DNA of 64,000 nt from Daejeonella sp. (GTDB taxonomy: Bacteria; Bacteroidota; Bacteroidia; Sphingobacteriales; Sphingobacteriaceae), in contig NZ_JAUYSS010000058.1 in assembly GCF_030695525.1 (NCBI RefSeq), positions 1-64,000 of the forward strand, written 5' to 3'. Positions 16,709-44,577 of this stretch are shown here, one piece after another. How positions within the stretch are numbered: position 1 is the first letter of the stretch; each line of letters begins with the position of its first letter. Under the pieces are notes generated by a model. That model saw nothing but the letters and a program-made list of their open reading frames with translations. It was not told where the DNA came from and did no database searches. Both the position numbers and the translations under genes were made by a program.

Positions 16709-18061
16709 TTATTCCTTCGATTTTTTAACCAATTCAGCCACCTTTTTACTGATTTGCTTTTCTACCGATTGAGTATAAGGTGCACGATGTCCGTACTCAG
16801 CCATTCCGCTGTCTCCTTCATATCCGCCTTCTTTCAAAACTCTCAGACTTGGGACATAACTTAAGAGATCATTGTTATAGCCAAAGACCCAGGTATCGTT
16901 CCATCCGTACAATCCTTTGAATTTGAGTGAGTAATCGACAACAGTTTCACCGGTTAAGGCAATAAAGGTAAATCCGGAGCCAAACCTCCAAACCTGAATG
17001 GGGTATTTCACACGATCAGGTGGCGCACCCAGGGTTTCATATTGATTGATCTGATGTTCAATTTCAGTTTTTGCCATACCGGTTTGGCCAGGTAGTTGTT
17101 TCTTTAATTCTGCAAGAGATAATCCCGGTTTAAGAAAGAGTTCCGTTTCACCCATTACAGCCTTAATCGGGCCGCTAATTGCTTTCATCGGGGCTGCAAT
17201 CACTTGCTTAACGGATTCAGCAAGGATATGTCCGTACATCGAAGTAAGTTTCACAGCCTCAGCCTCATTTCCACGTATTCTGGGAAGTGGATTTGCATCT
17301 CCACCACAATTCTGAACAAACATCGCAAGCGATCCCGGATATTGCTTTTCCAGTTCAATCTGCGCAAAACCGGCATAATCGCCGCTGATGCTTAAGCCTC
17401 CCAAAGCAGTGGTATGGCATGAATAACCGAAAAGAATACCACGGAGTTGTCCCCCAGACTTAATAGTCAATACCGGAACATCCTGATCAACCTGTCTGCC
17501 GAATGCTCTTGTTTCAGGACCGCGTGATCTCCTGCGGTTCACGGCAATACCGGCCAGTCCCTGTTCAAAATTGATTTCTGCCGGAGAAAGATCTTTTAAG
17601 GCAGCAGCAATTACTTCATCATATCGCTGATAAACCATTTGGGTATACCGATCCTTCGCCGCCCTTTCCTGATCATTAAACTCATAATAGATCCATAATA
17701 CATCTTCAGTAACCGGGCATGAATGATTATGAGAGGTATTTAAAATCAGGCGTTCTCTTGGTATTTTATACTTTTCTACTGCATTAGCCGCAATAATACC
17801 TACCATTTTATCACTCAGACCAACCAGGTCGGCAGTCACCATGACTGATAATTGCCCCGTTTCATCCCGCAAGGCCATTGCCTTAAGCCAGATCGGATGG
17901 ACAATCTCATGCGACATCCGGGTTTTGCCTCCATAACCTGCCAGAGGAACGGATTCCGTGGGTGTGATATCTGCTTTGGCAACACCTGCCTGCCATTGGG
18001 CAAGAGCAGGGCTTGATAACAATATACTCGCCAGGATAATTTTACTCATTAGTCTATTCAT
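16709..18061 (-). CDS. Secreted neutral ceramidase-like amidase (short form)
   Basis: This 450-residue exported protein starts at the ATG at 18061 (MNRLMSKIILASILLSS, signal cleaved near ALA-Q); the longer frame begins only with a TTG. The N-terminal AGVAKADITP is the typical opening of the neutral/alkaline non-lysosomal ceramidase family. The zinc-site candidates are NTSHNHSCP near 110-120 and GYSCHTTALGG near 220. It is shorter than classical ceramidases (about 650-700 aa), lacking their C-terminal domain. Family members hydrolyse N-acyl amide bonds. Inside a glycan locus the likely substrate is an N-acyl group on a sugar rather than ceramide (inference). It is the last gene of the long minus-strand series. 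Confidence 0.8.
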   Translation of the reverse strand: MNRLMSKIILASILLSSPALAQWQAGVAKADITPTESVPLAGYGGKTRMSHEIVHPIWLKAMALRDETGQLSVMVTADLVGLSDKMVGIIAANAVEKYKIPRERLILNTSHNHSCPVTEDVLWIYYEFNDQERAAKDRYTQMVYQRYDEVIAAALKDLSPAEINFEQGLAGIAVNRRRSRGPETRAFGRQVDQDVPVLTIKSGGQLRGILFGYSCHTTALGGLSISGDYAGFAQIELEKQYPGSLAMFVQNCGGDANPLPRIRGNEAEAVKLTSMYGHILAESVKQVIAAPMKAISGPIKAVMGETELFLKPGLSLAELKKQLPGQTGMAKTEIEHQINQYETLGAPPDRVKYPIQVWRFGSGFTFIALTGETVVDYSLKFKGLYGWNDTWVFGYNNDLLSYVPSLRVLKEGGYEGDSGMAEYGHRAPYTQSVEKQISKKVAELVKKSKE

Positions 18062-18248
18062 TATCAAAATATAAAAACTGTTAACTAGTTAATTCGCATC
18101 TCTGCGTCACTGCGTCTTTGCGAGAGTCCTTCTAATATTTTATATTCCCTGTGTCAGTGCCCTCATCGCTCCACAAGAACTTCTCATTTTTTCTCTAGCA
18201 AAGACGCAAATAGTTAAAGATTATCCAAATTCATCTATTTGAGCCTTG

Positions 18249-18302
18249 GTTCCTAGTTCTTAGTTCTCAACACGTAATTCGTAATTCCGTAATTCGTAAT
18301 TA
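18249..18302. repeat. Heptamer arrays GTTCTTA x3 and GTAATTC x4
   Basis: Three 7-bp units (GTTCCTA, GTTCTTA, GTTCTCA) run from 18249 to 18269. Four more (GTAATTC, GTAATTC, GTAATTC, GTAATTA, with one extra C) run from 18274 to 18302, just before the stop codon of the double amidohydrolase at 18310. Confidence 0.75.
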
Positions 18303-18309
18303 ATTATCC

Positions 18310-20064
18310 TTATTTCCTGAAAACAACAGGCACATTATACTCCGGCATATTCTTAATACAAGGTTCAATAACTGTATATGCATTTTCACCCAGGATCTTT
18401 TTCTTACTTGCCAATGGAAGGTTCGAAAATACCAGCCATCCTAACTGCTGACGCGGGTCACGCATAGGAAGGTCAGAACCATACATAATCCGGTCATCGC
18501 CCACGGCATCTACCATATATTCTATAATCCCCAAGGGAACCGGGGTAAGCGTAATTTCAGCAAAAACATTTTTATGCTTCTTCATCATAGCGATTGCCAT
18601 ATCAGCCATTTTGAAGCTTCCTCCGGCATGTGCAATAACCCAACGTACATTTTTATACTTTTCAGCCAGTTTATCTACCTCCAATAAATCGCCTCTGGAA
18701 GGATGGATCAGTGCATATAATCCGTTTTTATTTCCATATTCCCACCAGATATCATAAGCCGGATTATGGTATTCCATTCCATAGAAATGGTAAGGCTTCA
18801 TTCCTATAATACGCTTATCTGAATATACCTGCGGAATCATTTCAGCCAGTTGCTCTTGAGTATAATGCGTCGGACTAAAAGTCGCGAGTCCCCAAAAACC
18901 TTTGGGAGAGGCATCCAGAGCCTCTTTGACTAATTTATTCCCCTGTACAGAATCATTACTCACCACTCCATTCCAGCTCATGAAGCCCCCTCCAACACAA
19001 CCCAGTCGTTCCATCATCTTGAATATTCCCTTTGGTCCACCATTTTCCATATGGTATCCGGTACCTCCAGCCCCATGAATTCCTTCATGAAGCATATGCA
19101 TATGCATATCAATCACAGGAACCGGAATAGGTTTACCATTCCGAACAGAGCTCATTAAAATATCTTCTGACCTGTTTGTATGAACTTTAGGAGGGCGTTG
19201 TCCACCCAGAAGTCGGATCAGATTTCCTCCTGCAATTTTGGCTTTTGCATCATCCGGTATATCTGCATAATCAATGTAGGTACGATGTGCCCCGGCCGAC
19301 ATAGTTGGTGCATCAGTGGCAAATATCAACTGATTAATATGTCCTTTTTTGTAGAGAAACTCTAAGCCTTCATTAATCTGCATGCGGTCAAAACTGATAT
19401 GCAGATTAGGATGATCTTTCAATAATCCGATTGCATATCGCTGCTCCCCCCAGCTGATAGCAGAGACAAGCAGAGGAATTGATTTATATCGGGTTAGAAA
19501 CTCATTCAATTCCTTCCAGCCACCAATTTCTGAAACTGTAGTAATGGTAAAAACCTTATTATCATTCAGATGCTTCATAAGCTCCTGACTCGATTGCGCG
19601 CTCCAATCCCAACCATTTGAGGCAGGATGAATCGTAACCGCCCGCACATTATGCTCAGCCATCTTAAGCTTTAACTGGGCCGGAGGAAGGCATTCATTCG
19701 TATGATGTGGCAATACATTCCATATTCCAAATAAATTGGGATAAGGCTTTAGATGATTGCTTAATTCCAAATTGGAATACATTGCATCGTAACTGAGGGA
19801 TAAGGTAGAGGCAACCAGTGCCCCGGAAATGGAACAATGATCCAATTCCTTTATCAAATCTTCCAGTTGCCACTTTTCACCCGGATGTTTGTACCTTCTC
19901 GGACCAATGCGTGCGAAAGCATCGAAAAACAAAAGGTCTTTGGTCTGTGGCATCAAAAAATCGGCAGTAGAAGCAAGAAGGCTTCCTGATGTTGAAGCTA
20001 ATACTGTGGTTCCTAAAAGGGTTATGGAATTTTTTTTAATGAATTCCCGTCTGGATTTATACAT
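18310..20064 (-). CDS. Tat-exported double amidohydrolase: degenerate N-half fused to active C-half
   Basis: A 584-residue protein with a twin-arginine signal (KSRREFIKKNSITLLG) followed by two amidohydrolase_2 domains. The N-half (about 43-295) lacks the H-x-H element (FFDAFARIG) and the mid-barrel histidines, though it keeps ATDAP. The C-half (about 315-570) has an intact VIDMHMHML, HPSRG, IAHAGGSF and YGSDLPMRDP. This is twice the family's usual length. The separate pair at 11223-12987 shows the same combination as two genes, in opposite order. The reaction is unknown. It lies 33 bp behind the jelly-roll gene. Confidence 0.78.
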   Translation of the reverse strand: MYKSRREFIKKNSITLLGTTVLASTSGSLLASTADFLMPQTKDLLFFDAFARIGPRRYKHPGEKWQLEDLIKELDHCSISGALVASTLSLSYDAMYSNLELSNHLKPYPNLFGIWNVLPHHTNECLPPAQLKLKMAEHNVRAVTIHPASNGWDWSAQSSQELMKHLNDNKVFTITTVSEIGGWKELNEFLTRYKSIPLLVSAISWGEQRYAIGLLKDHPNLHISFDRMQINEGLEFLYKKGHINQLIFATDAPTMSAGAHRTYIDYADIPDDAKAKIAGGNLIRLLGGQRPPKVHTNRSEDILMSSVRNGKPIPVPVIDMHMHMLHEGIHGAGGTGYHMENGGPKGIFKMMERLGCVGGGFMSWNGVVSNDSVQGNKLVKEALDASPKGFWGLATFSPTHYTQEQLAEMIPQVYSDKRIIGMKPYHFYGMEYHNPAYDIWWEYGNKNGLYALIHPSRGDLLEVDKLAEKYKNVRWVIAHAGGSFKMADMAIAMMKKHKNVFAEITLTPVPLGIIEYMVDAVGDDRIMYGSDLPMRDPRQQLGWLVFSNLPLASKKKILGENAYTVIEPCIKNMPEYNVPVVFRK

Positions 20065-20097
20065 TGAATATTTCTTTATAGCTTTTGATTAGTTCTG

Positions 20098-20805
20098 TTA
20101 ATTTCCTGGTTTATAAATACTGAGATCCCTGATCAGGCATGAAGCAGTTAATCCGGCAGTTCCCCGAATCCTGAACAGGATATTTCCATTTCCATGAGGA
20201 GTAGTATCCTGCATTTCCACAACCCGTTTCCCATCTATACTCATACGGATATCTTTACCAATTTTGGCGATCTCTACCTGGTAATAGATTCCCGCTACCA
20301 TCATATCAGGATGTGAAGCATTCGCGATTTGCACAGATGCCGGATTTTTTAAAATGAAGGGATTTGCACCATGAGGGGCATTTTTATACGCAAAAAGGTA
20401 ATTCTTACTATCTGCATTCAGCAATTTCATACCACCATCATAATCTGACGGTATAGTTAAGCCTTTTTTTTCTAAGGGATCTGAAGCGGATAAGATTGTT
20501 ACAAGTACCGTAGCAGGAGTCAGTGCAAGGACTTTATATTTTAGAATAACATCGCCGTAAGATTCCGGGCTCATCAGCATGACTCCCTGACTATCTTCGG
20601 CTTCTGAAAGGCAGGTCTGTGCATTTAACACATTAAATACCTTCCCTTTTCCAAGCAATTTCCATTTCACGAGATCTTCGGCAGAAATCTTATGTTCCTG
20701 CCAATCAGATGGTATCTCTACCGAATTTCTAACAGATGCAAAAGAGATTTGAGCTGATAGAAGAAATAATAGAAGAAATCCGAGAGTTAAAATTCTATTG
20801 TTCAT
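20098..20805 (-). CDS. Secreted jelly-roll (LamG/DUF1961-like) protein
   Basis: A 235-residue exported protein with a Sec signal peptide (MNNRILTLGFLLLFLLSAQ). The rest is beta-rich with the pattern of a concanavalin-like jelly roll: YGDVILKYKVLALTPATVLV in the middle and VEIAKIGKDIRMSIDGKRVVE followed by GNGNILFRIRGTAGLTASCLIRDLSIY at the end. This resembles DUF1961/DUF1080-type domains found in polysaccharide loci as binding modules or as hydrolases; I cannot choose between them. It lies between a secreted AGE-family gene and the double amidohydrolase with short spacers, so it is probably co-transcribed. Confidence 0.65.
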   Translation of the reverse strand: MNNRILTLGFLLLFLLSAQISFASVRNSVEIPSDWQEHKISAEDLVKWKLLGKGKVFNVLNAQTCLSEAEDSQGVMLMSPESYGDVILKYKVLALTPATVLVTILSASDPLEKKGLTIPSDYDGGMKLLNADSKNYLFAYKNAPHGANPFILKNPASVQIANASHPDMMVAGIYYQVEIAKIGKDIRMSIDGKRVVEMQDTTPHGNGNILFRIRGTAGLTASCLIRDLSIYKPGN

Positions 20806-20884
20806 GGCTTATTTTGTATTTGTTTATTCTATTAATTTTATTTTTCTACCCATAACATTATGGTTGATGGCTTTATATTTCCTT

Positions 20885-22246
20885 TTAGGATTTTGCAAAT
20901 AACCCTGAAACTTTACCTCCTCTGGCAATAATTCTTTCCAAAATTTCTATGGAGTAAAAAAATTGCCTAGGGGTATGCAATAAACCATTGGTGACAATCT
21001 TTTCGGGTTTGGCTGAGTAAACCTTGAAACAATCATTATAATAATCGATTACCAGCGGATCATGCGTATGTTCGATGGTCATAAGACCAAACACGAGAAC
21101 ATCATCCAGGGCACCCCAGGTATAATTCCCATTCTCAACTAATTTAGCTTTTGGATGACTTAGTGATAAACCCCCGAAATCGGGATTTGAGGGCATTCCC
21201 TTACCTAAAATATAGGTCTTTTCGAGCGTAGATATTCCCATTTCCATGCCTTTTCTAAAGGTAGGATAATGAGAAACCCGCAAGGCTTCATTCATAACCA
21301 TCCAGCAAGCCTGAATCGAATGCCAGCCACTTACACCCTGAGGATAGAAAGCACCCCAATTTGGTGCATCAAAGGTATAGGGTCTGAAATAATCATCGAG
21401 TAATTCAAGTAAAACACCTTCATTAGGCTGCCAGTGATGCTCACAGATTACACGTACACAATAACGGGCAATCCGCTCAACAGCCGGATCACGGCTAACT
21501 TTAAGTAATGGAGTTAAAGCGGCTAAAAAGTGTTGCCAGCTTGGAAGACGGCGGGTTCCCGGCTCCAGCGCCTCGGTATGTGCATCAACATGCTGATAGG
21601 TTGGAGATAATAATCTGTCTTTAACAGATATGGCCGTTTTGATTGCCAGTTCAAGATCTCGAGGATCTTTTGTTGCGATATACAATTCTGCCAAACCCTG
21701 CATCATATAGATATCACCATAATGATCCAAAGGTTCTGTCAGTTTCTTTGTCCCATCGCGACTCACGAATGATGCCCATCTGTAGTCATCCGTCATTGCA
21801 CTTTTGATCAGGAAATCACGGCCTTTTATGGCTGCGTCCAGATGCTTTTTATCATTTGTGATATGATTATACAGATAAGAGAACATCCAGACAGCTCTGC
21901 CCTGGAAGTACATGCCTTTCTTTTCAAAATCAGGTTCCTGACCCGGACTTATTGCATTGGCAAATCCACCGTACTTATGATCAATACCCCGCTCCCAGTT
22001 TGGAATGTAAATGTCTTTCAGATAATTACGGTGATACTTCAGCAGATCCGGAAGAGACATACCTCCCAATTGATCAATGCTTCCTTCGATAACTGTCTTA
22101 TCACTTAGGTATTCAGTTTGTCCTTCTTCTCTAATTCTTTCTGAAGCAAGAATTTCCGGACTTAGCCCAAGTCCTATCATTGAAGCTAATCCCACTAAAG
22201 AATTCTTTTTCAGAAACTGTCGTCTTGAATATTCACAATTTTTCAT
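20885..22246 (-). CDS. Tat-exported N-acylglucosamine 2-epimerase (AGE) family protein
   Basis: A 453-residue protein with a twin-arginine signal (EYSRRQFLKKNSLVGLASM) and an (alpha/alpha)6-barrel sequence: DHKYGGFANAI near 85, FQGRAVWMFSYLYNH near 115, and a repeated helix-loop pattern to the end. AGE-family enzymes epimerise or isomerise sugars at C2, but this fold is shared with unsaturated glucuronyl hydrolases, and secreted AGE-like proteins in PULs are poorly characterised. The sequence is more distant from the two AGE-like proteins at 50425-53109 than they are from each other. Export to the periplasm argues against the usual cytosolic sialate role. Confidence 0.75.
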   Translation of the reverse strand: MKNCEYSRRQFLKKNSLVGLASMIGLGLSPEILASERIREEGQTEYLSDKTVIEGSIDQLGGMSLPDLLKYHRNYLKDIYIPNWERGIDHKYGGFANAISPGQEPDFEKKGMYFQGRAVWMFSYLYNHITNDKKHLDAAIKGRDFLIKSAMTDDYRWASFVSRDGTKKLTEPLDHYGDIYMMQGLAELYIATKDPRDLELAIKTAISVKDRLLSPTYQHVDAHTEALEPGTRRLPSWQHFLAALTPLLKVSRDPAVERIARYCVRVICEHHWQPNEGVLLELLDDYFRPYTFDAPNWGAFYPQGVSGWHSIQACWMVMNEALRVSHYPTFRKGMEMGISTLEKTYILGKGMPSNPDFGGLSLSHPKAKLVENGNYTWGALDDVLVFGLMTIEHTHDPLVIDYYNDCFKVYSAKPEKIVTNGLLHTPRQFFYSIEILERIIARGGKVSGLFAKS

Positions 22247-22321
22247 ATTCTAGTTTATTTCATTCGGAGCTAAAAAAGGTTATTAGTCCATTGATGCCAA
22301 TCTGTAAACATATATTATTGC

Positions 22322-22474
22322 CTCTGGTCGGTGTTCTCACCGTACCATAAACGCTCTCTCATCTCATGGTCTGTGAAAACACCGACCAGAGAAAATAGTA
22401 ATTACGGGCAAGCGACCCGATAGCTATCGGGTGACGAATTTAACCGGCATGATGCCTATGTAAATTCGTAAGTC
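22322..22474. repeat. Composite palindromic repeat, copy 1
   Basis: It begins with an inverted pair of 19-bp arms (22322-22340 and 22373-22391; 18 of 19 bases pair, core GGTCGGTGTT/AACACCGACC). A perfect 18-bp palindrome ACCCGATAGCTATCGGGT follows at 22415-22432. It ends with a hairpin ACGAATTTA (22434-22442) / TAAATTCGT (22461-22469) enclosing GGCATGATGCC. A related copy at 41166-41332 has the last hairpin in reverse orientation. Confidence 0.78.
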
Positions 22475-22510
22475 GGAAAACTAATTCAAATTAGTAATTC
22501 ATTGCCTTTA

Positions 22511-22531
22511 TTCCTTGTTCTTTGCTCTTTG
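22511..22531. repeat. Short heptamer array TTCTTTG x3
   Basis: Three 7-bp units (TTCCTTG, TTCTTTG, CTCTTTG) end 8 bp before the stop codon of the CBM9-like gene. It is one of several heptamer arrays at gene ends in this window. Confidence 0.6.
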
Positions 22532-22538
22532 ATCCCCA

Positions 22539-23267
22539 TTATTTAAACACCAGTGTACCAAAATATTGCGGAAGATGAAACTGTGGAACAGGATTCTGAA
22601 CAATATTCCAGGTTATGTAATGCGGATTAGTACTTCTGCTTGATGTTTTATAGAAATTGGCCTTCCATTTAACACCCTTTTCCGGTTGCGTGTAATTTCC
22701 ATATTTTGCAAGCAATGAAAGAGGCATTTTAAACTCGAGGAACCAGGTTACGGGTTCGCTTATTTCCTGTTCCAGTTTTTTTGGCAAAGTATGTGCAATT
22801 TCTACGACATCAAAATCTTCCTCTTTTACATTAGTTCTTTTTCCATCCTTATGGTAAGCCATCAATCCTGTTCCCCCCGCATTAATCTCAACATTGAAAT
22901 ATCTAAGCGGCCAGTCCTTATCCGGTGAGAAAAAGAATTCAACACATGCATCTGTCGAAACAGAGCTGTTAAACTTTGTATTCTGAATTCTGACATGACG
23001 GTCCTCAACTTTATAGATCAGGTATACATTTTCAGAATCGTACATCATTTTTGCTGTGACCACAGGCTGAAATGCCGGTAGAGTCCCCATAAAATTCACA
23101 ATTGGAATTTCCTTTACTTTCTTCCATTGCGGTTTATCCCAATTCGCATCAATTGTCAATGATCCTTTCAACTTCCTGACTTTGTAAACAGATGGCTTCT
23201 CAGATGAATATGCTACAGGCAGCATGTAAACCATGGCAATTAACAGTAAGAATGATATTTTTTTCAT
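22539..23267 (-). CDS. Secreted carbohydrate-binding module family 9-like protein
   Basis: I chose the ATG at 23267, giving 242 residues with a clean Sec signal (MKKISFLLLIAMVYMLPVAYS). A longer frame to 23345 would encode residues from a heptamer repeat array and is rejected. The body matches CBM9/DOMON-like domains: LKGSLTIDANWDKPQWKKVKE near 35, TAKMMYDSENVYLIYKVEDRHV near 85, the FFSPDKDWPLRYFNVEINAGG stretch, and WFLEFKMPLSLLAKYG. Stand-alone proteins of this type are common in PULs and presumably bind sugar ends at the cell surface or in the periplasm. No catalytic residues are evident. Confidence 0.75.
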   Translation of the reverse strand: MKKISFLLLIAMVYMLPVAYSSEKPSVYKVRKLKGSLTIDANWDKPQWKKVKEIPIVNFMGTLPAFQPVVTAKMMYDSENVYLIYKVEDRHVRIQNTKFNSSVSTDACVEFFFSPDKDWPLRYFNVEINAGGTGLMAYHKDGKRTNVKEEDFDVVEIAHTLPKKLEQEISEPVTWFLEFKMPLSLLAKYGNYTQPEKGVKWKANFYKTSSRSTNPHYITWNIVQNPVPQFHLPQYFGTLVFK

Positions 23268-23282
23268 AATTATATATTTTTT

Positions 23283-23359
23283 GAGGTATGAGGTATGAGG
23301 TATGAAGTATGAGGTCTGAAGTATGAGGTCTGAGGTATCAGACATCCGACCTCAGACAT
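23283..23359. repeat. Heptamer array, eight direct plus three inverted-type units
   Basis: Eight 7-bp units (GAGGTAT/GAAGTAT/GAGGTCT) run from 23283 to 23338. CAGACAT, CCGACCT and CAGACAT follow to 23359; these are partly complementary to the preceding units, so the array can fold back on itself. It fills the spacer between the Kelch-like gene and the CBM9-like gene. Confidence 0.85.
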
Positions 23360-23367
23360 CAGTTGTC

Positions 23368-24372
23368 TCAATTCTTCTCCAACCACTTCTTCGGCACCTT
23401 CAAACTCCATACCTCACTATCCAGCAAATAGTTTGGTTCTGCTGCGCCACCTGCAATCCAAATTTTATCTTTAAAAACAAATGCAGCCTGCTCATGCCTT
23501 TTGGTCCATTTTAAATCAGACTTTAACTCTGTCCAGTTTTTTCCATCCTTTGAATACCAAACATCACCCTTATTTCCTGATTCAGCCCAGCCACCCAGTA
23601 CCCAAATCCTGTCTCTGTAAACCACTGTAGAAAACCAGATCCGTGGATCCCATGGAGCAGCGGCAGTGACCTGAGTCCAGTTTACCCCATCTTCAGAACA
23701 CCAGACATCATTCAGTGATTCTGGTTTGGGAGCCCGAAGTCCTCCACCTATGATCCAGATCTTTCCGTCAAATACAAGGGCCTGTCCATGAGTTCTTTTT
23801 GACCAGGGTGCATTAGCCAGCTCAAGTTTCCATTCTTTGCCATCTGCTGAGGACCATACATCATTAAATAAGGTAGTGTCATTATTCTTATAAAAATCGC
23901 TGGTACCGCCCATTATCCACATGCGGTTTTTAAAAACCACAAATCCGGGTGCTAATCTTGGGCTCCATCCTGCATTGGGTGTTTCCAAAACCCAATCAGC
24001 TCCATTCTTTGATGACCAAACCTGATTGCTCGTATTTGTACCAGGTAATTTCCTTCCACCCATCATCCACATTTTCCCCTTAAAAACCATTGCTGCAGGA
24101 AGATCACTATGCTCCCAGGGTGCAGTTTCTGTAACCCTTGTCCAGTTCTTTCCATCCGGCGACTTCCAGACATCCCGCGGATTCGGTAATTGAGGTGTAA
24201 ACCATCCGCCGAGAATCCACATATTACCTTTAAACACAAACTCCCCCTGAGAATCCCGGGCCTGCCAGGCAGCTTCAGGTGTTTCCTGCACCCAATTCAG
24301 GGTATTTGTTTGAGCAGATAAACCGGAACCTGTTCCGATTAAAATTGCTATCAATAGGATTAAATGCTTCAT
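23368..24372 (-). CDS. Secreted six-bladed Kelch-type propeller with Asp-box motifs
   Basis: This 334-residue protein has a Sec signal peptide (MKHLILLIAILIGTGSG). It consists of six repeats, each containing a Kelch-type strand pair ending in Gly-Gly (MWILGGW, MWMMGGR, MWIMGGT, IWIIGGG, IWVLGGW, IWIAGGA). Five of them are followed by an Asp-box-like S-x-D/N-G-x-x-W (SPDGKNW, SKNGADW, SADGKEW, SEDGVNW, SKDGKNW). It has a repeated aromatic 'W-x-x-R' step between blades. It resembles the C-terminal propeller of DUF6242-type Bacteroidota proteins. No sialidase active-site arginines are obvious, so a binding or lectin-like role is more likely than catalysis. Confidence 0.75.
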   Translation of the reverse strand: MKHLILLIAILIGTGSGLSAQTNTLNWVQETPEAAWQARDSQGEFVFKGNMWILGGWFTPQLPNPRDVWKSPDGKNWTRVTETAPWEHSDLPAAMVFKGKMWMMGGRKLPGTNTSNQVWSSKNGADWVLETPNAGWSPRLAPGFVVFKNRMWIMGGTSDFYKNNDTTLFNDVWSSADGKEWKLELANAPWSKRTHGQALVFDGKIWIIGGGLRAPKPESLNDVWCSEDGVNWTQVTAAAPWDPRIWFSTVVYRDRIWVLGGWAESGNKGDVWYSKDGKNWTELKSDLKWTKRHEQAAFVFKDKIWIAGGAAEPNYLLDSEVWSLKVPKKWLEKN

Positions 24373-24409
24373 TTTCTTAAATTAATTGAACATATAAATG
24401 CCTATTCGC

Positions 24410-27400
24410 CTAGTTTATTGAAATTTTTGATTGGCCCTGAGGTATAGTCAGTGTCAGAATTTTTAAATTCTGATCATACTTCCAATTCTTTACACTCTGT
24501 CCATTCTGAACAACAGAAGACGGCTTTACCGGACTTACCATCATGAGTTCAGAAGGACTATCCGATTTTACTTCAAGAACTGTACCTCTATCTGAAAGGC
24601 TAAGAGAAGCGATAACAGAACTAGAAAATTTCAACCCTGAACCATAAGCATCAAAACTTTTGCCTTCAAAATAAGCTTCTTTTAGCTGATCTTCCGAAAT
24701 TACTGCCGTAAATCTGCTTGCATCTGTTTTAAAACCCTCAACACTGGCATCTGAACTTTGATTCACCCTGAAAAATCCATAATACTTTGTGTTAACTTCA
24801 TTCAACACAGCACCTATCCAGTCATTAGAATCAATCCGCGTAGGTTTTGGCCTTACTGCATAATCACCGTTAGCAGGTTTTCCTTCAGGCACCATTACCG
24901 CCAGAAAATCTGCATTATTTTGTTTCGCAGATGATATAGCAATAAAACTCTCATCCCGATCAGAGTTACGAATCACTCCCGTTAATGGCTGCGGGGAAAG
25001 TACATCCATAGTCAATCTAGCCGCAGGGCGATTTATGCTCATCCGATTATCCGCATAAGAAATTGAACTTTTCCCATTCGTGTGCTCGGCATGAAAAAGC
25101 CAATTGTATGAATGTGCATCAGGGCTTTTCACCTGATCAAAGAGAAATATCGGACCATTTTTAATGCTGAGTAAGGTGCGGGTATAATTTGACACAACTC
25201 CTTTGTAAACACTTGTGAGATCTCCTTCCACACCACTTGATCTTTCACCTGCAAATGAACTGGTAATTTTTGGCCAGGTCTTTAACGATGCTATCCCGTT
25301 ATCAAAATCTCCGGGTGCCTGACTCTCGGCATTCATATCCACCAGCATCACATTATGTCCTACCGCCTGAGTATAATATCCGGGGAAATAAAGATTTGCA
25401 TAATAGCTGCTGCTATGACCGGCGTCACTCAACAACTCTTCTCCATTATGTGTCAGCAGAATGGTACCCTGATCATAATGATAATGATTTCCATTAGGTC
25501 CGGCTTTATAAATCAGGATACTACCTGAATCATCCCAGCTTGAACGAATTACCATGTGGCCTTTACCTACAAAGTGCTTTGAAGTTGGAAGAGTCTCCCT
25601 GCTGATCGGTGTGATACCCTCTGTATACCAGAGGTATGGCAAAATACCTCCCCTTGCTACACCTGAATCCCATGATGGTTTAACATATTTATACATGAAC
25701 GGATCTTTCATCTTATAAACAAGCCACTGCATGGGTTGCTGGGTAAAATTGTAGGTAGGAGAAACATCACCCAGATCCTGATATTTTCCCCTGTTATTCT
25801 GGGTTACATACAATGGATACTGGTAAAACTCTTTTAAATAGGTAGTAGAAGTATAATCTATCCCATAATTATTTTCGAGGGAAAACAGAAACTCTACAAA
25901 CTCCCGGTATCCCATTTCCTGATAAGTATAGGGCTCATTGTAGCTACCTTCAGGCAGCATGGTGCGATCAATAAACTGTTTGGATTTAGCAAGGATACCC
26001 GAAAGATAAGGTTCAAGGCCAGGTAATTCCGGATCATCATTGGCAATCGCCATAGCCGCAAGCCCCACTCCGGAGAGGATCACACCTATGTGATTCGAAT
26101 TGCTTGTTGGCATTCGGTTTAATTCAACCATATCGCGATAGAAAGGTTTGATGGAGTTTTCCATAATTCCTTTACGAATCTCTTTACGCTCCTGTTCAGA
26201 AAGAATTTGAAACAATAAATCATAACCCAATGCCGCAGCCATAGCGGCCGGAGCACCAGGATAATAGGTATGGTTTCCGTTTGCCTCCATCCATGGATGG
26301 TTCCATGATGGCATTGAGCAAAGTTCGGTAAGTGCTGCCTTAGCCTTCTCTCCGGCTTCTTTATTGCCGGTCAGATAAAATTGCCAGGCTTCATTATTAA
26401 TAACCCTGGCAAGAGTATTCTGGGTGTTATACCAGCCACCCATGCTTGCACTGGCATAAGGACCGCCGGTAACAGATTCAGGAGCTACTGATGTAGGTTG
26501 AGGCAAGGAATTGATATCTACAGTTGATGGCTTATAAGTGTTGATAAAATTCTCTAATAATTTTTTTGCAGCCGGGGGTTCAAATCCGGCTCTTCTGGCA
26601 GCCAGTTCCGGGCCGGTAAAAAAGACCCTGGGATGGCTTGTTGCATTTAAACCCGGAACCTGAATGATAAAACTCATATCCCATGTAAAACCTTGTGCTC
26701 CTTCGGCAGTAATTCTTGCTTTCCACTGTCCTCTGGAATCTCCGGCTTTGATTGTATGTACTGCATTATTAGACCATATACCATCTCCTGCCCGGGAATC
26801 GCCATGTGTTCCATCATCATAAAATTTGACTTTTTTTAATCTGGTCTGCCCATCCGGACTTATAAGATCAGCGCTTACAGCATTAGGCTTCACACCATCC
26901 TCGGCCTTTACGCTCAATGATATGGTTTGACCTGTTGTATAATGGTTATGAATTACCGTCTGACCAAAGTGCTCCAGCCAGGTGGAACCTGGCTGGGTTG
27001 AAATAAACTGTCTGGGCCTTTCTCCGTTAAGCCGGAATTCATCCATCAGCATAGAATAGCTGGGTAAATGATTCACCACCGGATAAAAAGTTTTCATAAC
27101 GACAACCTGAAGGTGCGCACCTGCACTCAGCGACTTACCTGAAGACTTGAAAGACTCAATTGGAAGGTCCACTTCAACCCAGGTGTTTGCTTTTGGCGAA
27201 CTGATAGTGTGGGTGTACAATGTGCCTTCAAAAGTTCCCAGAGAAACATCCAGATTTGCCGGTTTTCTGTCACTCATTAAAAAGAAAGCAAACTTCAATC
27301 GCGTTGATGAAGTAGCATACATATCAATTCGCTTAGTAAATCCCTGTGTAAGATCATTAGCATCATTAGGCTTGGTTAAACGCCAAAGCGAACTCCCTTT

Positions 27401-27607
27401 TCCACCATAAGCAGGTTCCTTTTTGGTACTGAAGGCAGGATCGTAACCTGTGTCCTGTTGATAGGGATACGGCTCCCATGTGAACATCTCACCGGTATCG
27501 AAATTATCATAAATGACATATGGCACCCTGCTTCCTGATGTTTGCGCATTACCTGCACTTACGAAAAGGAGAAGTGACAGGAAAGGTGCTATTGCTTTTA
27601 TTTTCAT
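24410..27607 (-). CDS. Heparinase II/III-family polysaccharide lyase-like protein
   Basis: A 1065-residue secreted protein with a Sec signal (MKIKAIAPFLSLLLFVSAGNA). It has an N-terminal jelly roll (about 25-200), a second beta domain, an alpha/alpha toroid (about 330-640) with MPTSNSNHIGV near residue 500, and a C-terminal beta-sandwich beginning with NHYHYDQGTI near 707. It is a clear paralogue of the protein at 7963-11175 along its whole length, which suggests duplication between two related gene groups. Tyr/His residues expected for beta-elimination are retained. The specificity is not readable. It lies 37 bp before the Kelch-like gene in the transcript order. Confidence 0.85.
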   Translation of the reverse strand: MKIKAIAPFLSLLLFVSAGNAQTSGSRVPYVIYDNFDTGEMFTWEPYPYQQDTGYDPAFSTKKEPAYGGKGSSLWRLTKPNDANDLTQGFTKRIDMYATSSTRLKFAFFLMSDRKPANLDVSLGTFEGTLYTHTISSPKANTWVEVDLPIESFKSSGKSLSAGAHLQVVVMKTFYPVVNHLPSYSMLMDEFRLNGERPRQFISTQPGSTWLEHFGQTVIHNHYTTGQTISLSVKAEDGVKPNAVSADLISPDGQTRLKKVKFYDDGTHGDSRAGDGIWSNNAVHTIKAGDSRGQWKARITAEGAQGFTWDMSFIIQVPGLNATSHPRVFFTGPELAARRAGFEPPAAKKLLENFINTYKPSTVDINSLPQPTSVAPESVTGGPYASASMGGWYNTQNTLARVINNEAWQFYLTGNKEAGEKAKAALTELCSMPSWNHPWMEANGNHTYYPGAPAAMAAALGYDLLFQILSEQERKEIRKGIMENSIKPFYRDMVELNRMPTSNSNHIGVILSGVGLAAMAIANDDPELPGLEPYLSGILAKSKQFIDRTMLPEGSYNEPYTYQEMGYREFVEFLFSLENNYGIDYTSTTYLKEFYQYPLYVTQNNRGKYQDLGDVSPTYNFTQQPMQWLVYKMKDPFMYKYVKPSWDSGVARGGILPYLWYTEGITPISRETLPTSKHFVGKGHMVIRSSWDDSGSILIYKAGPNGNHYHYDQGTILLTHNGEELLSDAGHSSSYYANLYFPGYYTQAVGHNVMLVDMNAESQAPGDFDNGIASLKTWPKITSSFAGERSSGVEGDLTSVYKGVVSNYTRTLLSIKNGPIFLFDQVKSPDAHSYNWLFHAEHTNGKSSISYADNRMSINRPAARLTMDVLSPQPLTGVIRNSDRDESFIAISSAKQNNADFLAVMVPEGKPANGDYAVRPKPTRIDSNDWIGAVLNEVNTKYYGFFRVNQSSDASVEGFKTDASRFTAVISEDQLKEAYFEGKSFDAYGSGLKFSSSVIASLSLSDRGTVLEVKSDSPSELMMVSPVKPSSVVQNGQSVKNWKYDQNLKILTLTIPQGQSKISIN

Positions 27608-27618
27608 GGTGTGTTTCT

Positions 27619-27674
27619 GTTGTCTGTTGTCTGATGTCTGATGTCTGATGTCTGAAATCTGTTTTCTGTTATCT
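27619..27674. repeat. Heptamer array GATGTCT, eight units
   Basis: Eight consecutive 7-bp units (GTTGTCT x2, GATGTCT x3, GAAATCT, GTTTTCT, GTTATCT) lie just upstream of the heparinase-like start codon at 27607, where the 5' leader of that gene would be. Confidence 0.85.
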
Positions 27675-27737
27675 TTACCAATTGTCAGTAATTTATTGGT
27701 TCATTTTACACTTGGTTTTAATACCCTAGAAGGTTTT

Positions 27738-27772
27738 GTCAACTGTCAACTATCAACTGTCAACTGTCAGTT
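27738..27772. repeat. Heptamer array GTCAACT, five units
   Basis: Units GTCAACT, GTCAACT, ATCAACT, GTCAACT and the variant GTCAGTT run from 27738 to 27772. The array touches the stop codon of the ceramidase-like gene at 27772. Confidence 0.8.
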
Positions 27773-29253
27773 CATTTAACCCTATTTATCAGCTCCATCG
27801 ACGCATCAATCAATACCTGCTCAGCCTGCGGTGCATAAGGACTTCCATTAACTGCATATCCGCCTTCTATATACTCTGCGGCGGTGGCGATATATCCATT
27901 AAATCCACCTGCCACACCCAAAATAAAGGTATTTGCATAAGGTGATTTTTGTTTAACGCTTAAACCAATTTCAGTAAAGACTTCAGCAGGGAAGGTTACC
28001 AAAACTGTTGTTCCGATACGGATGGCCTGCATAGGCATTAAATACGGTGCCGGATTAGCAGGAAGGGCTTCAATCCTTTTCGATTGACCGACCGCCTGGG
28101 TGGCAAGCCAATAATCAACTTTATACTTATCCAGTGTTCTTGGTCCGATGGTTTTACCTATATCGCCTTTAGCCACCAATTCACGGGCGGCTTGGTTCAG
28201 TCTTTCAACACCTTCGAGATCTTTGGGATAATAAATGACCAATTTTTCCTTTTCCTCTAAAGTCTTTTTGGCCTGCTCCTGCCAGCGAAGGGCTTCTTCA
28301 TGTGTATAAGGGAAAGTTGTACGAACCGGGATTTTAAATTTATCATAAGCAACCTTTACATCCAGGTTTGCAGAGGTTTTAATCCCCGGTAATACCTTGA
28401 GAACTGCTTCTGAAAGGAGGGCACCTTTCTTTTCGGCAAATTCAAAGCTTCTGATTCCCTGCATAAAAGCACCCACTGCCGAAAGTTCTGCCTGGTAGCC
28501 TACTTTGGCATCGCCCTGAGCGGATTGAAAATATCCTACAATAACACCCTTCGGTAATTTATCTTTAATTCCTTTGATAGAAAAATACGGCCAGTCTTCT
28601 GTGAATTTTAAATTATGAAGATCCAAAGTTGAAGGATGGCAGCCATAATTGAAAAATACCCCCATTAGTTTGCCCTGCGCATTCTCAACTTTGATAACGG
28701 CTGCTTCAGGATCAGGTGGAACACCGCCATGCTCCATTCTTCTGTCATTCATTGCCATTCCAAAAACATCTGTTGAACCTGCTCCAATCTTCCCATTAAC
28801 TCTGCCTTTCCATGCATTAACAGCACTTTGAACTGTTCTGCTTATGAAAAATTTGATATAAGCATCCTCCAGATTGCCCATAACAGGGCCGGAATGGGTA
28901 TGGGTAGAAGAAACGATCACATTTTTAAATGGAATTCCGGTCTCTTTATTTACCCCTGTACGGATCTGGTCCATTACCAGTTCAGACATATTAACCACAG
29001 CAACAGTGATCATTGCAGAACTTGTTCCGTCAGCAGCCTCTACAACCAGACTTCGGGCAAATAGATCATCATGAACACCGGTAGAGGTATTTGCACCCCT
29101 GTCGTAACCGGCCATCCTCACACCAATTGGATTCGGGGGCGTAATTATTGTCTCTGCAACACCTACTTTTATTTGCGCTGAGAGGCTTTCAGATAAACCA
29201 ATAAATACAATCAGAGTTAAGGAGAATAACTTTAAATAATGTGTTTTTTTCAT
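27772..29253 (-). CDS. Secreted neutral ceramidase-like amidase
   Basis: A 493-residue protein with a Sec signal peptide (MKKTHYLKLFSLTLIVFIGL). It has the family's N-terminal VGVAETIITPP...GVRMAGY, the probable zinc site SSTHTHSGPVMG near 120, a mid-protein FNYGCHPSTLDLHN, and GGFNGYIATAAEYIEGGYAV near 455-475, which resembles the ceramidase segment before the C-terminal domain. The C-terminal immunoglobulin-like domain of classical enzymes is missing. Such proteins hydrolyse N-acyl amides. Placement next to a heparinase-like gene suggests N-deacylation of a glycan or glycolipid (inference). It is a distant paralogue of the protein at 16709-18061. Confidence 0.8.
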   Translation of the reverse strand: MKKTHYLKLFSLTLIVFIGLSESLSAQIKVGVAETIITPPNPIGVRMAGYDRGANTSTGVHDDLFARSLVVEAADGTSSAMITVAVVNMSELVMDQIRTGVNKETGIPFKNVIVSSTHTHSGPVMGNLEDAYIKFFISRTVQSAVNAWKGRVNGKIGAGSTDVFGMAMNDRRMEHGGVPPDPEAAVIKVENAQGKLMGVFFNYGCHPSTLDLHNLKFTEDWPYFSIKGIKDKLPKGVIVGYFQSAQGDAKVGYQAELSAVGAFMQGIRSFEFAEKKGALLSEAVLKVLPGIKTSANLDVKVAYDKFKIPVRTTFPYTHEEALRWQEQAKKTLEEKEKLVIYYPKDLEGVERLNQAARELVAKGDIGKTIGPRTLDKYKVDYWLATQAVGQSKRIEALPANPAPYLMPMQAIRIGTTVLVTFPAEVFTEIGLSVKQKSPYANTFILGVAGGFNGYIATAAEYIEGGYAVNGSPYAPQAEQVLIDASMELINRVK

Positions 29254-29388: not shown

Positions 29389-30735
29389 TTATTTGGCTTT
29401 TGTTTCCAGCGCATGTACTGTTATCTGAGGAGGATAATTGTATTTCAATGCCTCGTCTTCCACATACTTTACAAAATCCTTTTCATTATTATTTACTTCA
29501 CCAAAACTCCAGGCGCCAAATATCATGTACTCATAGCTCAGATCAGCGGTTACAGGCATCTTAAATACATGGTTTCCTCCATAGTTCTTTATCGCCTGAT
29601 ACTGAGGCTTAAATTTGTCTTTTATCACCAAACCTATTCCCTGCCATGGCACCATCAAAACCTCATCACCAATATCCTCATCCGGGATTCTTGCCTCAAC
29701 ATTTTTACCCATTGATATGGCAATCCCATTTTTATTTACTGAAGTATACTCATTCATTATCCTGCGAATACCTGCACCAAACATCACCTGGGCATTCGGT
29801 GCATTAAACTCATTGAATTTTGTCTCAACTGTACTCCAGCTTTTACCCGCATAGGCCGTATAGTATTGATCCAGTTCATAAAATCCCTGTCCTGAATTCC
29901 AATTGGTCGTGCTAACCTTGATCATGCTGCGTAGCGGACCGTTATACACTAAATCAAATGCAAAGCGGCTGTCGTCAAAGGGTCCTTTATTCTTGAATGG
30001 AGAATGATATGCGCGTGCTGGGTTCTCCATATCCATTGGGTTTTCAAAAATACACATCCCTCCTGCTCCGAAAGTGCTCGCTACTGTCATGATATCCGTC
30101 CCCATTTCCCAGGGCATATAATAGCCCGACTTATTGGTGGAATATTCATAATACGCGGTCAACATTGGTGCTCTCTTTCCGTGAAGGTCTACTTCATGAG
30201 GGTACCAAAGTTTCCAGCCCATATCTTTTGATTCCCAAAGCGGTACAATATGACGGCCATAATTGGCTATTGATCCATGAACCTGATGCTCATACATGCC
30301 ACGCTCATAGTGGTCAATATAGATGTAGAAATCACGGGATTCTTTAGCTGCCAAATCTGACATGAAAAATATCTCATCCCAAATTCCATCCTTATTCTTA
30401 TCATCTACCTGAAGTTCTACATAATGGCCGTTCGTTTCTTTTCTTCGCACGTAACCACTATTCGTCTTGAGCTGTTCAACCGTAGGCTCCGGATCGGAAG
30501 GAAGTTGGGGATCTACAATACCTATCCATCGTTCCGGGATGTTTTGCATCGGTAAAATTGTACGTGGGACTACGATCGGACATCCTTTGACCGGTACATT
30601 TAAAGGGTTTGTAACTGTAATCTTGATTCTTCGGGTAGGGGCATAATCTTTCCCTTCTGTATACCAGCCAGAACCCGTTTGGGCATTGGTCATTCCGGCT
30701 GTAAAAAGTAAGGCAACAAATACGGCAATTTTCAT
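29389..30735 (-). CDS. Secreted DUF4861-family protein
   Basis: A 448-residue protein with a Sec signal (MKIAVFVALLFTAGMTNA). The core has the DUF4861 features as I know them: RIKITVTNPLNVPVKGCPIVV at the start, ELQVDDKNKDGIWDEIFFMSDL near 110, and the conserved GSIANYGRHIVPLWESKDMGWKLW stretch near 155-180. The family occurs in pectin, rhamnogalacturonan and other uronate loci near GH88/GH105 and PL genes, and its biochemical function is not firmly settled to my knowledge. It lies between an M28 peptidase and a ceramidase-like gene. Confidence 0.72.
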   Translation of the reverse strand: MKIAVFVALLFTAGMTNAQTGSGWYTEGKDYAPTRRIKITVTNPLNVPVKGCPIVVPRTILPMQNIPERWIGIVDPQLPSDPEPTVEQLKTNSGYVRRKETNGHYVELQVDDKNKDGIWDEIFFMSDLAAKESRDFYIYIDHYERGMYEHQVHGSIANYGRHIVPLWESKDMGWKLWYPHEVDLHGKRAPMLTAYYEYSTNKSGYYMPWEMGTDIMTVASTFGAGGMCIFENPMDMENPARAYHSPFKNKGPFDDSRFAFDLVYNGPLRSMIKVSTTNWNSGQGFYELDQYYTAYAGKSWSTVETKFNEFNAPNAQVMFGAGIRRIMNEYTSVNKNGIAISMGKNVEARIPDEDIGDEVLMVPWQGIGLVIKDKFKPQYQAIKNYGGNHVFKMPVTADLSYEYMIFGAWSFGEVNNNEKDFVKYVEDEALKYNYPPQITVHALETKAK

Positions 30736-30795: not shown

Positions 30796-32031
30796 TCAAG
30801 TACGGTCTGCTCTTTTTATGAACTCATCAAACACTTGAAAACTTATTTCCACACAATCAAGTGGAACTTTGTCAGCAGTATCATCTGGACGATGATAAAC
30901 AGGCAGGGTTTTCTCATCATAACCGCGGCTGTTTGCATGCAAAGCTATGGCACCTGAAGGTTTGAAGGGTAATGAGTCCATCACAAATCCATCATTTTCT
31001 CCGTAAATCGGGGTTGATTCAATATTCAAATCCTTATGAATATCCCTGATCATATCTTTGACTCCCTGGTCTTTTGAATTAATCCAGAGGTTTGGGCCAT
31101 AGGTCAATGAATCAAAATTCAGGACATACCTGATATCATTCATTGTATTATCAGCAATGCGGCCCGCTGCATAGTGATGTGCACCCTCATAAACATACTC
31201 CTCGGAATCAGAGGCCACAAAAGTCAGTGTATGATTATGTTCCCTACCGGATGCAGCATGTGCAAGCATCAGCATGACAATCACTGAGGCTGCATTATCA
31301 TTGGCACCCGGTGTATTAAAAATAGTATCCAGATGGGCAATGATCAGAATTTCCTTTTTTGTTTTGCCGGGTATACGACCTATTACATTGATTCCGGGAG
31401 CTTTATGTACAGGCTTATATTCAGATTTAATACTTGCCGAAAGTTTATTTTTTGCACTTCGGTCCAGAAGAAGAACATCCTGCTTCCCAATCCCAAAAAC
31501 TGGAACGGATTTATCAAGGTTTCCTGAGCCAGATCCTGCTATAGCTCTCCCATATTGATTGACAGAAAAATATGCCAGAATCTGACCATTTTGCTCGTCT
31601 GTAATAGCATAAGCACTTCCAATTTTAGCAAAAACTCCACTTACACCATTTGCAGGAGTACCAAAACCTCTCTTCTGAGGTATAGCCTCAATATGCTGAG
31701 CTCCAACAATCAGACTTGAACTATTTATCGGACCCCAGTCATCAAATTCGTATCTATCAAAATTTACCTGAGGAAGGGAACGCTGCATTTCCTTAAGAAC
31801 TATCTTTGCCGCTTTTGCAAAAGCCTTACTACCACTGGGTCTTGGTCCAATATCAGTAACAAGTTTCTTTAATAAGGCAATAGTATATTCCTGACGTTTT
31901 TGTGCGCTTGAAACAAGATCGGAGGATAAACTGCTTTGAGCGAAAGACCATTTATTGCTTAGCATTAAAAATACCAGTCCACCGGTCATTTTCAGAAATT
32001 CAGCTCGCTGAAGCTTTTTATAATTCATCAT
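30796..32031 (-). CDS. Exported M28-family zinc peptidase
   Basis: A 411-residue protein with an N-terminal export signal (FLKMTGGLVFLMLSNKWSFA); the signal has only one arginine, so Sec is more likely than Tat. The dinuclear zinc site of M28 aminopeptidases is visible: IAHLDTIF (H233, with D235), GANDNAAS (D245), SDSEE near 275-278, NFDSLT near 306, and VYHRPDDT near 390. An inserted PA-like region may lie at about 110-200. M28 enzymes release N-terminal amino acids or act as carboxypeptidases. Co-location with a transglutaminase-like protein suggests processing of peptide or amino-acid substituents (inference). Confidence 0.82.
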   Translation of the reverse strand: MMNYKKLQRAEFLKMTGGLVFLMLSNKWSFAQSSLSSDLVSSAQKRQEYTIALLKKLVTDIGPRPSGSKAFAKAAKIVLKEMQRSLPQVNFDRYEFDDWGPINSSSLIVGAQHIEAIPQKRGFGTPANGVSGVFAKIGSAYAITDEQNGQILAYFSVNQYGRAIAGSGSGNLDKSVPVFGIGKQDVLLLDRSAKNKLSASIKSEYKPVHKAPGINVIGRIPGKTKKEILIIAHLDTIFNTPGANDNAASVIVMLMLAHAASGREHNHTLTFVASDSEEYVYEGAHHYAAGRIADNTMNDIRYVLNFDSLTYGPNLWINSKDQGVKDMIRDIHKDLNIESTPIYGENDGFVMDSLPFKPSGAIALHANSRGYDEKTLPVYHRPDDTADKVPLDCVEISFQVFDEFIKRADRT

Positions 32032-39873: not shown

Positions 39874-39972
39874 AATTTTACACGTTTTAAAAGTTATCAA
39901 AATGACTTCTAATTTTAGAAGACAGGATTTAAAACATCAATTGTGGTACGATGGCAGTCGGACAACAATTAT

Positions 39973-43310: not shown

Positions 43311-43355
43311 GACCAGATAAATTAAAAGAATAAATATAAATTTTGCAATGCAGGT

Positions 43356-44570: not shown

Positions 44571-44577
44571 TGTAATA

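Follow-up and report, generated by a model that had tools for sequence, protein, structure and literature searches.

Two short ceramidase-like proteins in a SusC/SusD polysaccharide locus of Daejeonella: candidate zinc amidases for the N-deacylation of amino-sugar glycans

The window analyzed here, a stretch of 64,000 nucleotides of Daejeonella sp. (contig NZ_JAUYSS010000058.1), raises the question of whether two ceramidase-like proteins encoded within a polysaccharide locus act on lipids or on glycans. Both predicted short zinc amidases are encoded on the minus strand and carry an apparent signal peptide: P0001 (16709..18061; 450 aa, with an alternative TTG start at 18067) and P0002 (27772..29253; 493 aa). 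A preliminary description of this DNA had reported the two reading frames, their ceramidase-type elements and the absence of a C-terminal domain, and each of these observations was recovered: the elements are AGVAKADITP and TSHNHS in P0001, and VGVAETIITP and STHTHS in P0002, and no match to PF17048 (ceramidase C-terminal domain) was found in either protein or anywhere else in their own genome. The pair does not stand alone, as the genome has at least 13 members of the ceramidase-like family. Both window proteins are under purifying selection (Ka/Ks of 0.05-0.10 against orthologs).

With 48.1 bits for P0001 and 58.8 bits for P0002, both proteins passed the gathering cut-off of Pfam PF04734 (Ceramidase_alk; 32.1 bits), so the resemblance to ceramidases is not due to chance. 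Their scores against the NCBIfam neutral ceramidase model NF041649 (20.6 and 27.2 bits) fell far short of its cut-off of 1200. P0002 matched the solved structures 2zws and 4wgk, and profiles led by P0001 and P0002, each of which includes rows of the other protein, aligned with four long ceramidase-type proteins over 421 and 425 columns, respectively (probability 99.6 and E 1.3e-24 for both). In the alignment, with positions counted by hand, H118, E424 and Y454 of P0002 correspond to H97, E411 and Y448 of 2zws, which are zinc ligands of that enzyme. All four zinc-ligand columns (H, H, E and Y; including H206) are kept in P0001 and P0002, and in 78 of the 83 aligned rows when Asp is accepted in place of Glu. 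With these ligands, a length within about 400-530 aa and no PF17048, the two proteins belong to a class of short PF04734 proteins that have the N-terminal domain only.

The position of the active-site serine of ceramidase (S274, after a G-D/N motif) is occupied by Asn in P0001 and Lys in P0002; three of the four long proteins have Ser or Thr there and the other has Glu. These long proteins scored 163 to 591 bits with PF04734, and PF17048 was over its cut-off in two of them, below it in one and without a match in the last. The clustering with ceramidases that the preliminary description had named as part of a refutation was not seen: in a quick tree whose rows include no ceramidase verified by assay, the four long proteins, ceramidase-type by sequence, formed one group (SH-aLRT 98) excluding both P0001 and P0002.

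P0001 and P0002 lie in a SusC/SusD polysaccharide locus of a Daejeonella-type member of the Sphingobacteriaceae, and the genes described here are on the minus strand. In the order of transcription, an ECF sigma factor (41340..41882; PF08281 and PF04542) and a FecR-like anti-sigma factor (40096..41082; PF04773) are followed by a SusC-like TonB-dependent receptor (36379..39900; PF00593, PF07715 and PF07660), a SusD-like lipoprotein (34668..36335; PF12741) and a 756 aa protein (32071..34341) with no Pfam match of its own. The last is a relative of a transglutaminase-like protein encoded at 5470-7737, with orthologs of the two about 25% identical. An M28 family peptidase (30796..32031; PF04389) lies two genes before P0002 and a DUF4861 protein (29389..30735; PF16153) directly before it. 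Next after P0002, as the preliminary description had noted, is a heparinase II/III-like lyase (lyase 1; 24410..27607; PF07940), followed by a kelch-repeat protein (23368..24372; PF24681), a CBM9-family carbohydrate-binding protein (22539..23345; PF16011) and an AGE-type (N-acylglucosamine 2-epimerase-like) protein (20885..22246; PF07221) with an RR-type N-terminus, which scored 88.9 bits with NF052547, under its cut-off. An amidohydrolase (Amidohydro_2; 18310..20064; PF04909) precedes P0001; downstream are two overlapping Amidohydro_2 genes (11223..12987; PF04909 in both) and a second heparinase II/III-like lyase (lyase 2; 7963..11175; PF16332 and PF07940), a paralog of lyase 1 with 43-44% identity.

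Further genes flank this block. NagA, N-acetylglucosamine-6-phosphate deacetylase (4074..5261), scored 303.5 bits with TIGR00221, above the cut-off of 225.65. A protein of the NagB-like glucosamine-6-phosphate isomerase/deaminase family (3309..4061; TIGR00502 133.2 bits, under cut-off) is 46% identical to its Martelella counterpart, and a NagP-like MFS sugar transporter (1921..3240) reached 376.4 bits with NF046060, under the cut-off of 625. These three genes count in favor of glycan chemistry. At the other side, 42063..45850 encodes an amidohydrolase/deacetylase (NF006689), a DgaE-like PLP lyase, a NagB-like protein and a RidA-family protein.

By sequence, lyase 1 resembles the PL35 glycosaminoglycan lyases. 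Its best solved relatives were 8khv, 8khw and 9o3q, and its N505, Y562 and H708 correspond to N192, Y246 and H401 of GAGase II, so that the catalytic Asn, Tyr and His of PL35 are all kept. Lyase 2 keeps the Asn and His motifs; its Tyr region is gapped in the pairwise alignment.

The arrangement around P0002 is conserved in related genomes, where matches 76-93% identical to it were found in 11 loci. The order DUF4861, P0002, lyase 1 is kept in all seven related loci that span it. Taken singly, lyase 1 follows P0002 in 8 of 8 loci, and a DUF4861 ortholog precedes it in all 10 loci reaching that far, with one extra frame between them in L083. Each of the four related loci extending as far as P0001 has an ortholog of it (L082, L085 and, cut by the end, L078 and L081). 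In L082 this ortholog lies between the CBM9 gene and the two amidohydrolases, which directly follow it, and lyase 2, all on one strand, so that lyase 2 is joined there to the same gene block as P0001. In favor of glycan chemistry, the DgaE-like ortholog lies on the contig of P0002, 12 to 15 kb away, in four of five related genomes (G349, G350, G351 and G353); it is on another contig in G352. Against it, NagA is on the contig of P0002 in only two of the five (G349, about 20 kb away, and G353, about 44 kb) and on another contig in G350, G351 and G352.

This genomic company suggests that acyl groups are cut from amino sugars rather than from lipids. From it we infer a deacylase activity, its substrate, the bond cut and the order of steps, and the reading that P0001 and P0002 are zinc amidases re-used for the N-deacylation of amino-sugar glycans seems to us about evenly balanced. 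The two proteins would be exported zinc amidohydrolases that have the neutral-ceramidase fold but only its catalytic N-terminal domain. Their substrates, met in the periplasm or on the cell surface, would be products of a polysaccharide of uronic acid and amino sugar imported via SusC/SusD. The two PL35-like lyases would cleave the polymer by beta-elimination, after which P0001 and P0002 would hydrolyze the amide bond between the amino sugar and its N-acyl group, using water activated by zinc on His, His, Glu and Tyr. The freed amino sugars would then pass to epimerases and NagA/NagB-type enzymes. No open-licence paper on such enzymes in glycan breakdown was found among titles and abstract openings.

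The preliminary description had already proposed glycan N-deacylation. What stood of that proposal is the conserved glycan context, the relatives in amino-sugar and glycan loci, and the position outside the ceramidase group; the link to heparinase-like genes did not hold across the family. Of 39 heparinase-like matches, 2 lay within 5 kb of a family member (0.46 expected; Poisson p 0.08), 5 within 10 kb (0.82 expected; p 0.0016) and 7 within 20 kb (1.43 expected; p 0.0007). Two of the five 10-kb matches are those of this window and the other three come from one genome, and the link is seen in two of the eight genomes with matches to both families; as a general rule it is weak. A general link of the family to SusD was not found, with SusD_RagB found among 6 of 111 neighbors of Bacteroidota ceramidase-like proteins versus 5 of 111 controls; the scan covered 111 of 160 neighbor proteins (14 genomes) and 111 of 295 control proteins from hand-chosen round coordinates in 7 genomes.

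Relatives in other lineages were examined for their gene neighborhoods. Seven plasmid proteins form a group at least 53% identical to an alphaproteobacterial relative, a Martelella protein (itself included), and in all seven cases an amidohydrolase gene lies directly before, NagA-like in the four that were scanned. The seven operons also contain genes for a NagB-like protein, a SIS isomerase and a sugar ABC transporter, and all seven proteins, judged by eye, have no signal peptide. In the Bacteroidota genome G162, the gene order is SusD, GH109-type, SSF transporter, heparinase-like, ceramidase-like and GH20 (hexosaminidase). Both contexts lend independent support to the deacylase reading. Against it, nine of the 16 plasmid loci of short proteins that were read have contexts other than amino-sugar catabolism. 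A first profile comparison had placed P0002 especially close to the alphaproteobacterial operon proteins, but its profile also contained P0001 rows, and a cleaner comparison rejected this kinship: the group ranked 5th and 3rd of 17 subfamilies for the two window proteins, the nearest to neither.

NagA in the window counts against N-deacylation by P0001 and P0002, since the removal of plain acetyl groups is already covered and a second enzyme for it is not needed. This point favors an alternative, which we consider unlikely, in which the two proteins, working alongside the M28 peptidase and transglutaminase-like proteins of the locus, cut other amides of the polymer, namely those joining amino acids or short peptides to uronic acids or amino sugars. 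It would fit the place of the peptidase near P0002, the kinship of the 32071 protein with the 5470 protein, and the genes of the D-serine-dehydratase type (4 of 111) and M19 type (3 of 111) near relatives, neither of which is among the 25 families listed for the 111 controls. However, these neighbor counts are small, and P0002 and lyase 1 stay in place where the M28 gene is absent (L082) or the 32071 protein is absent (L079 and L081). Furthermore, no peptidase appears in the gene tables of the alphaproteobacterial operons, which are incomplete and contain NagA-like and NagB-like genes and genes for sugar transporters.

The number of paralogs (this genome has at least 13, and G162 gave 19 HMM matches), together with the varied neighbor genes, would also agree with general amidases for N-acyl amines that act on 2-acylamino-3-hydroxy compounds (ceramides, N-acyl amino sugars and N-acyl serine lipids), each paralog having drifted to a local substrate. 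We regard this as rather improbable, because P0001 and P0002 keep to one locus in all the related genomes and their alphaproteobacterial relatives to a single operon type, which points toward a set substrate.

That P0001 and P0002 are true ceramidases acting on own or surrounding sphingolipids, which Sphingobacteriaceae do make, and are in this locus by chance is highly improbable: the fold, the zinc ligands and the PF04734 match are shared, but the tree position, the lower PF04734 scores (48 and 59 bits), the missing C-terminal domain, the Asn/Lys replacement, the conserved glycan synteny and the signal-less relatives in sugar ABC operons argue against it, and a sphingomyelinase gene such as that adjoining a ceramidase-annotated Kitasatospora protein was not found among the window proteins scanned. 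A Tenacibaculum ceramidase has been described among toxins, with no connection to glycans (PMC5561996).

If N-deacylation of amino-sugar glycans is the role of P0001 and P0002, a candidate step is added to the breakdown of glycosaminoglycan-like polymers. It is also possible, though somewhat less likely than not, that part of the short N-domain-only ceramidase relatives form an unrecognized carbohydrate N-deacylase family, whose fold would set it apart from NagA and from the polysaccharide deacetylases known so far. Its members would be exported where they belong to glycan loci of Bacteroidota and cytosolic where they belong to amino-sugar import operons of Alphaproteobacteria, and would now be mislabeled as ceramidases in public annotation. 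Among 20 of the 42 plasmid records matched, 14 carried the annotation "neutral/alkaline non-lysosomal ceramidase N-terminal domain"; they come from haloarchaea and Alphaproteobacteria. If some of these proteins deacylate amino sugars, a carbohydrate enzyme family is hidden under a lipid label. As the two window proteins are small and have a clear metal site, the N-deacylase claim is directly testable.

Three known systems can be compared with this locus. The loci of the PL35 glycosaminoglycan lyases GAGase II and VII (PMC12088678) likewise combine SusC/SusD with heparinase II/III-like lyases, and their Asn, Tyr and His recur in lyase 1; further papers on PL35 glycosaminoglycan lyases are PMC11262172 and PMC12269599. 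Unlike the PL35 GAGases, the lyases here are extended by a long N-terminal part, to 1065 and 1070 aa, and the similarity of lyase 1 to 8khv is distant (E 1.3e-16). With neutral/alkaline ceramidase (Pseudomonas aeruginosa 2zws and human 4wgk), P0001 and P0002 share the N-terminal catalytic domain, the GVA...ITP element, the THTHS motif and the His/His/Glu/Tyr zinc ligands, but both are shorter than the 2zws chain (646 aa) and differ at the active-site serine position, in their separate tree branches and in their glycan gene surroundings. NagA belongs to family CE9 and acts on a phosphorylated sugar in the cytoplasm. Its outcome, an amino sugar freed of its N-acyl group, is like that proposed for P0001 and P0002, and NagA-like genes directly precede their alphaproteobacterial relatives; however, it is of an unrelated family (TIGR00221), and P0001 and P0002 carry signal peptides.

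The two genes lie where the preliminary description had placed them: P0001 (450 aa) is encoded at 16709-18061 and P0002 (493 aa) at 27772-29253, each by a reading frame on the minus strand. By eye, both N-termini are typical signal peptides, with cleavage ends SPALA-Q and SLSA-Q, respectively. Both proteins exceeded the Pfam cut-off for the catalytic domain PF04734 (Ceramidase_alk) and scored far under the NCBIfam cut-off for neutral ceramidase. The Pfam scan gave no match to PF17048 in either, which bears out the absence of the C-terminal ceramidase domain proposed earlier. P0002 matched the neutral ceramidase structures 2zws (Pseudomonas aeruginosa, E 4.5e-6) and 4wgk (human, E 3.3e-5); a single-sequence search of the solved structures with P0001 gave no credible match (best E 0.16). 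In profile comparison, each of the two could be aligned with four long ceramidase-type proteins, the alignments spanning 421-425 columns.

The zinc ligands of 2zws are presumably H97, H204, E411 and Y448, and H118, E424 and Y454 of P0002 were the partners of H97, E411 and Y448 in an alignment counted by hand. The zinc columns (H, H, E or D, Y) were intact in 78 of 83 aligned proteins, including P0001, P0002 and all four long ceramidase-type proteins. Judged by these sequence features, P0001 and P0002 are almost certainly zinc amidases of the ceramidase fold. The five exceptions were three rows from locus L098 and one from L124, in which the second His was gone, and one from L111, in which all ligands were gone. 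Since the members in L098 (three genes) and L124 carry Pro in the second zinc His column, they would have a different metal site or none.

The main block is transcribed from the minus strand in the order ECF sigma factor, FecR, SusC, SusD, a 756 aa protein, M28 peptidase, DUF4861, P0002, heparinase-like lyase 1 (24410-27607), kelch protein, CBM9, AGE-like epimerase, a 235 aa protein, an Amidohydro_2 protein and P0001. Lyase 1 thus comes next after P0002, as had been described. Its closest relatives among solved structures were PL35 enzymes, and its N505, Y562 and H708 were the counterparts of N192, Y246 and H401, the catalytic residues of GAGase II as numbered in PMC12088678, for which the one offset fitting the published residues was used. 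In the paralogous lyase 2 (7963-11175, minus strand), the Asn and His were present and the Tyr region was gapped in pairwise alignment. Downstream of the main block, past a short run of other genes, come two further Amidohydro_2 genes, then lyase 2, a transglutaminase-like protein and NagA, which scored above its cut-off (303.5 bits); genes for a NagB-like protein and for a NagP-like transporter are last in the series. The genes ahead of the sigma gene encode an amidohydrolase/deacetylase, a DgaE-like PLP lyase and two further proteins, one NagB-like and one of the RidA family. In this set (42063-45850), the amidohydrolase has a Sec-type signal, the DgaE-like protein an RR-type N-terminus and the RidA-family protein a lipoprotein-like signal, with the NagB-like protein between them carrying none (all by eye); the set may serve as an exported pathway for amino-sugar acids. 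RRxF-type (Tat-like) N-termini were also seen by eye on AGE-like and amidohydrolase proteins at 20885, 50425, 51793, 18310 and 12037, and would place these sugar enzymes in the periplasm.

A single search of genome contigs with P0002 gave matches of 76-93% identity in 11 loci. Four of these come from records named Daejeonella, which puts the window close to that genus; two (L087 and L088) are pieces of one assembly. DUF4861 preceded P0002 in all 10 loci reaching that place, with an additional 437 aa frame between the two in L083, and lyase 1 followed P0002 in all 8 loci extending past it (L078-L082, L084, L085, L087). The three genes occurred together in all 7 loci spanning them; L087 begins within P0002, and L083, L086 and L088 end before the lyase 1 place. 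P0001 was present in 4/4 loci reaching its place and was cut by the locus end in L078 and L081. In L082 it is flanked by CBM9 and two amidohydrolases, with lyase 2 next, so the two window blocks are there joined as one unit. Other genes were less constant: M28 was absent from L082, the 756 aa protein from L079 and L081, and the kelch gene from L079 and L085. Measured against their orthologs, P0001 and P0002 had Nei-Gojobori (Ka/Ks) ratios of 0.05-0.10, and lyase 1 had ratios of 0.08-0.11. With contigs matched by their length, the DgaE-like gene was on the same contig as P0002, 12 to 15 kb off, in four of five related genomes and NagA in two of the five; in G352 neither was on that contig. The DgaE-like protein had between 9 and 18 matches at E 1e-30 or better in each of six genomes (G000, G349-G353), where its family is as strongly expanded as the ceramidase-like one.

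Among 296 sampled Bacteroidota genomes, in which weaker candidates per genome were scored in part, PF04734 was found in 17 and PF17048 in one. The genome of the window holds at least 13 family members (11 HMM matches, P0001 and L016:8421-9914), and among the neighbours scanned only L012 has a SusD gene beside a family member, besides the window pair. This second locus (L012:739-17491) has a SusD gene and one of SusC size, a ceramidase-like gene, a member of the 3-keto-disaccharide hydrolase family (PF06439, by a scan of the L100 copy), and genes for an oxidoreductase and an enolase-like protein; by gene sizes and N-termini, its counterpart is L100 in the same-genus genome G331. On another contig (C2), six consecutive ceramidase-like genes run from L016:8421 to L017:4219, one cut by the edge of the stretch read, preceded by three genes that look, from their N-termini, like the Lut-type block at 59033-61751 of the window. 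Genome G162 had 19 family matches, one of them in a locus with the gene order SusD, GH109-type, SSF transporter, heparinase-like, ceramidase-like, GH20.

Short relatives, consisting of the N-domain only, on plasmids of the Alphaproteobacteria Martelella, Nitratireductor (three), Ponticoccus, Devosia and Microvirga share one operon type, the set being all 7 plasmid proteins at least 53% identical to the Martelella one, itself included. An amidohydrolase gene is followed by the short relative and sugar ABC transporter genes, with LacI, NagB-like and SIS isomerase genes ahead. The amidohydrolase scored 179 to 193 bits against NagA in the four scanned, under the cut-off of 225.65, and the Martelella NagB-like protein was 46% identical to that at 3309-4061 of the window. 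At 37.1 and 41.0 bits, the two operon proteins scanned were above the cut-off for PF04734. In all 7 the AG-x-A-x-x-DITP-type element begins at most five residues from the first Met, which leaves no room for a signal peptide. By profiles of uneven depth, this group ranked 5th of 17 subfamilies for P0002 and 3rd for P0001; since it is not the closest subfamily, its support is by analogy. The operon was absent from the nine other short-protein plasmid loci read, among them Arthrobacter alpinus, where a PL8 lyase gene lies about 3 kb from a short protein under the PF04734 cut-off (26.7 bits).

This gene context suggests that P0001 and P0002 may remove N-acyl groups from amino sugars. The amino-sugar context is strong in the window lineage and in the alphaproteobacterial operons, and present in G162; as a rule it is absent for the family at large. 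A serious rival is that the two proteins cut amide-linked amino acids. Under the amino-sugar reading, because NagA genes keep the same company, the acyl group, or the sugar form, probably differs from that in N-acetylglucosamine 6-phosphate.

P0001 and P0002 are likely to be other than ceramidases. In a quick-mode IQ-TREE tree of 83 rows, the four long ceramidase-type proteins (two actinobacterial plasmid proteins and two from Bacteroidota) formed a single group (SH-aLRT 98). P0001 fell inside a 21-row group (97) of short proteins from Bacteroidota, haloarchaea and one Arthrobacter, and P0002 grouped firmly with its own orthologs only; the two were not mutual closest relatives. By the profiles of uneven depth, the long proteins ranked 13th (P0002) and 11th (P0001) of 17. 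The ceramidase serine position is N in P0001, K in P0002, and N in 50 and S or T in 9 of the 79 short proteins; it is S or T in three of the four long proteins and E in the remaining one. These long proteins scored 163 to 591 bits for PF04734, and they are an imperfect yardstick because PF17048 is uneven among them (passed in two, 27.1 against a cut-off of 30.5 bits in one, absent in one) and they are ceramidase-type by sequence or annotation. The Kitasatospora member is annotated as a ceramidase, and its gene adjoins a sphingomyelin phosphodiesterase gene.
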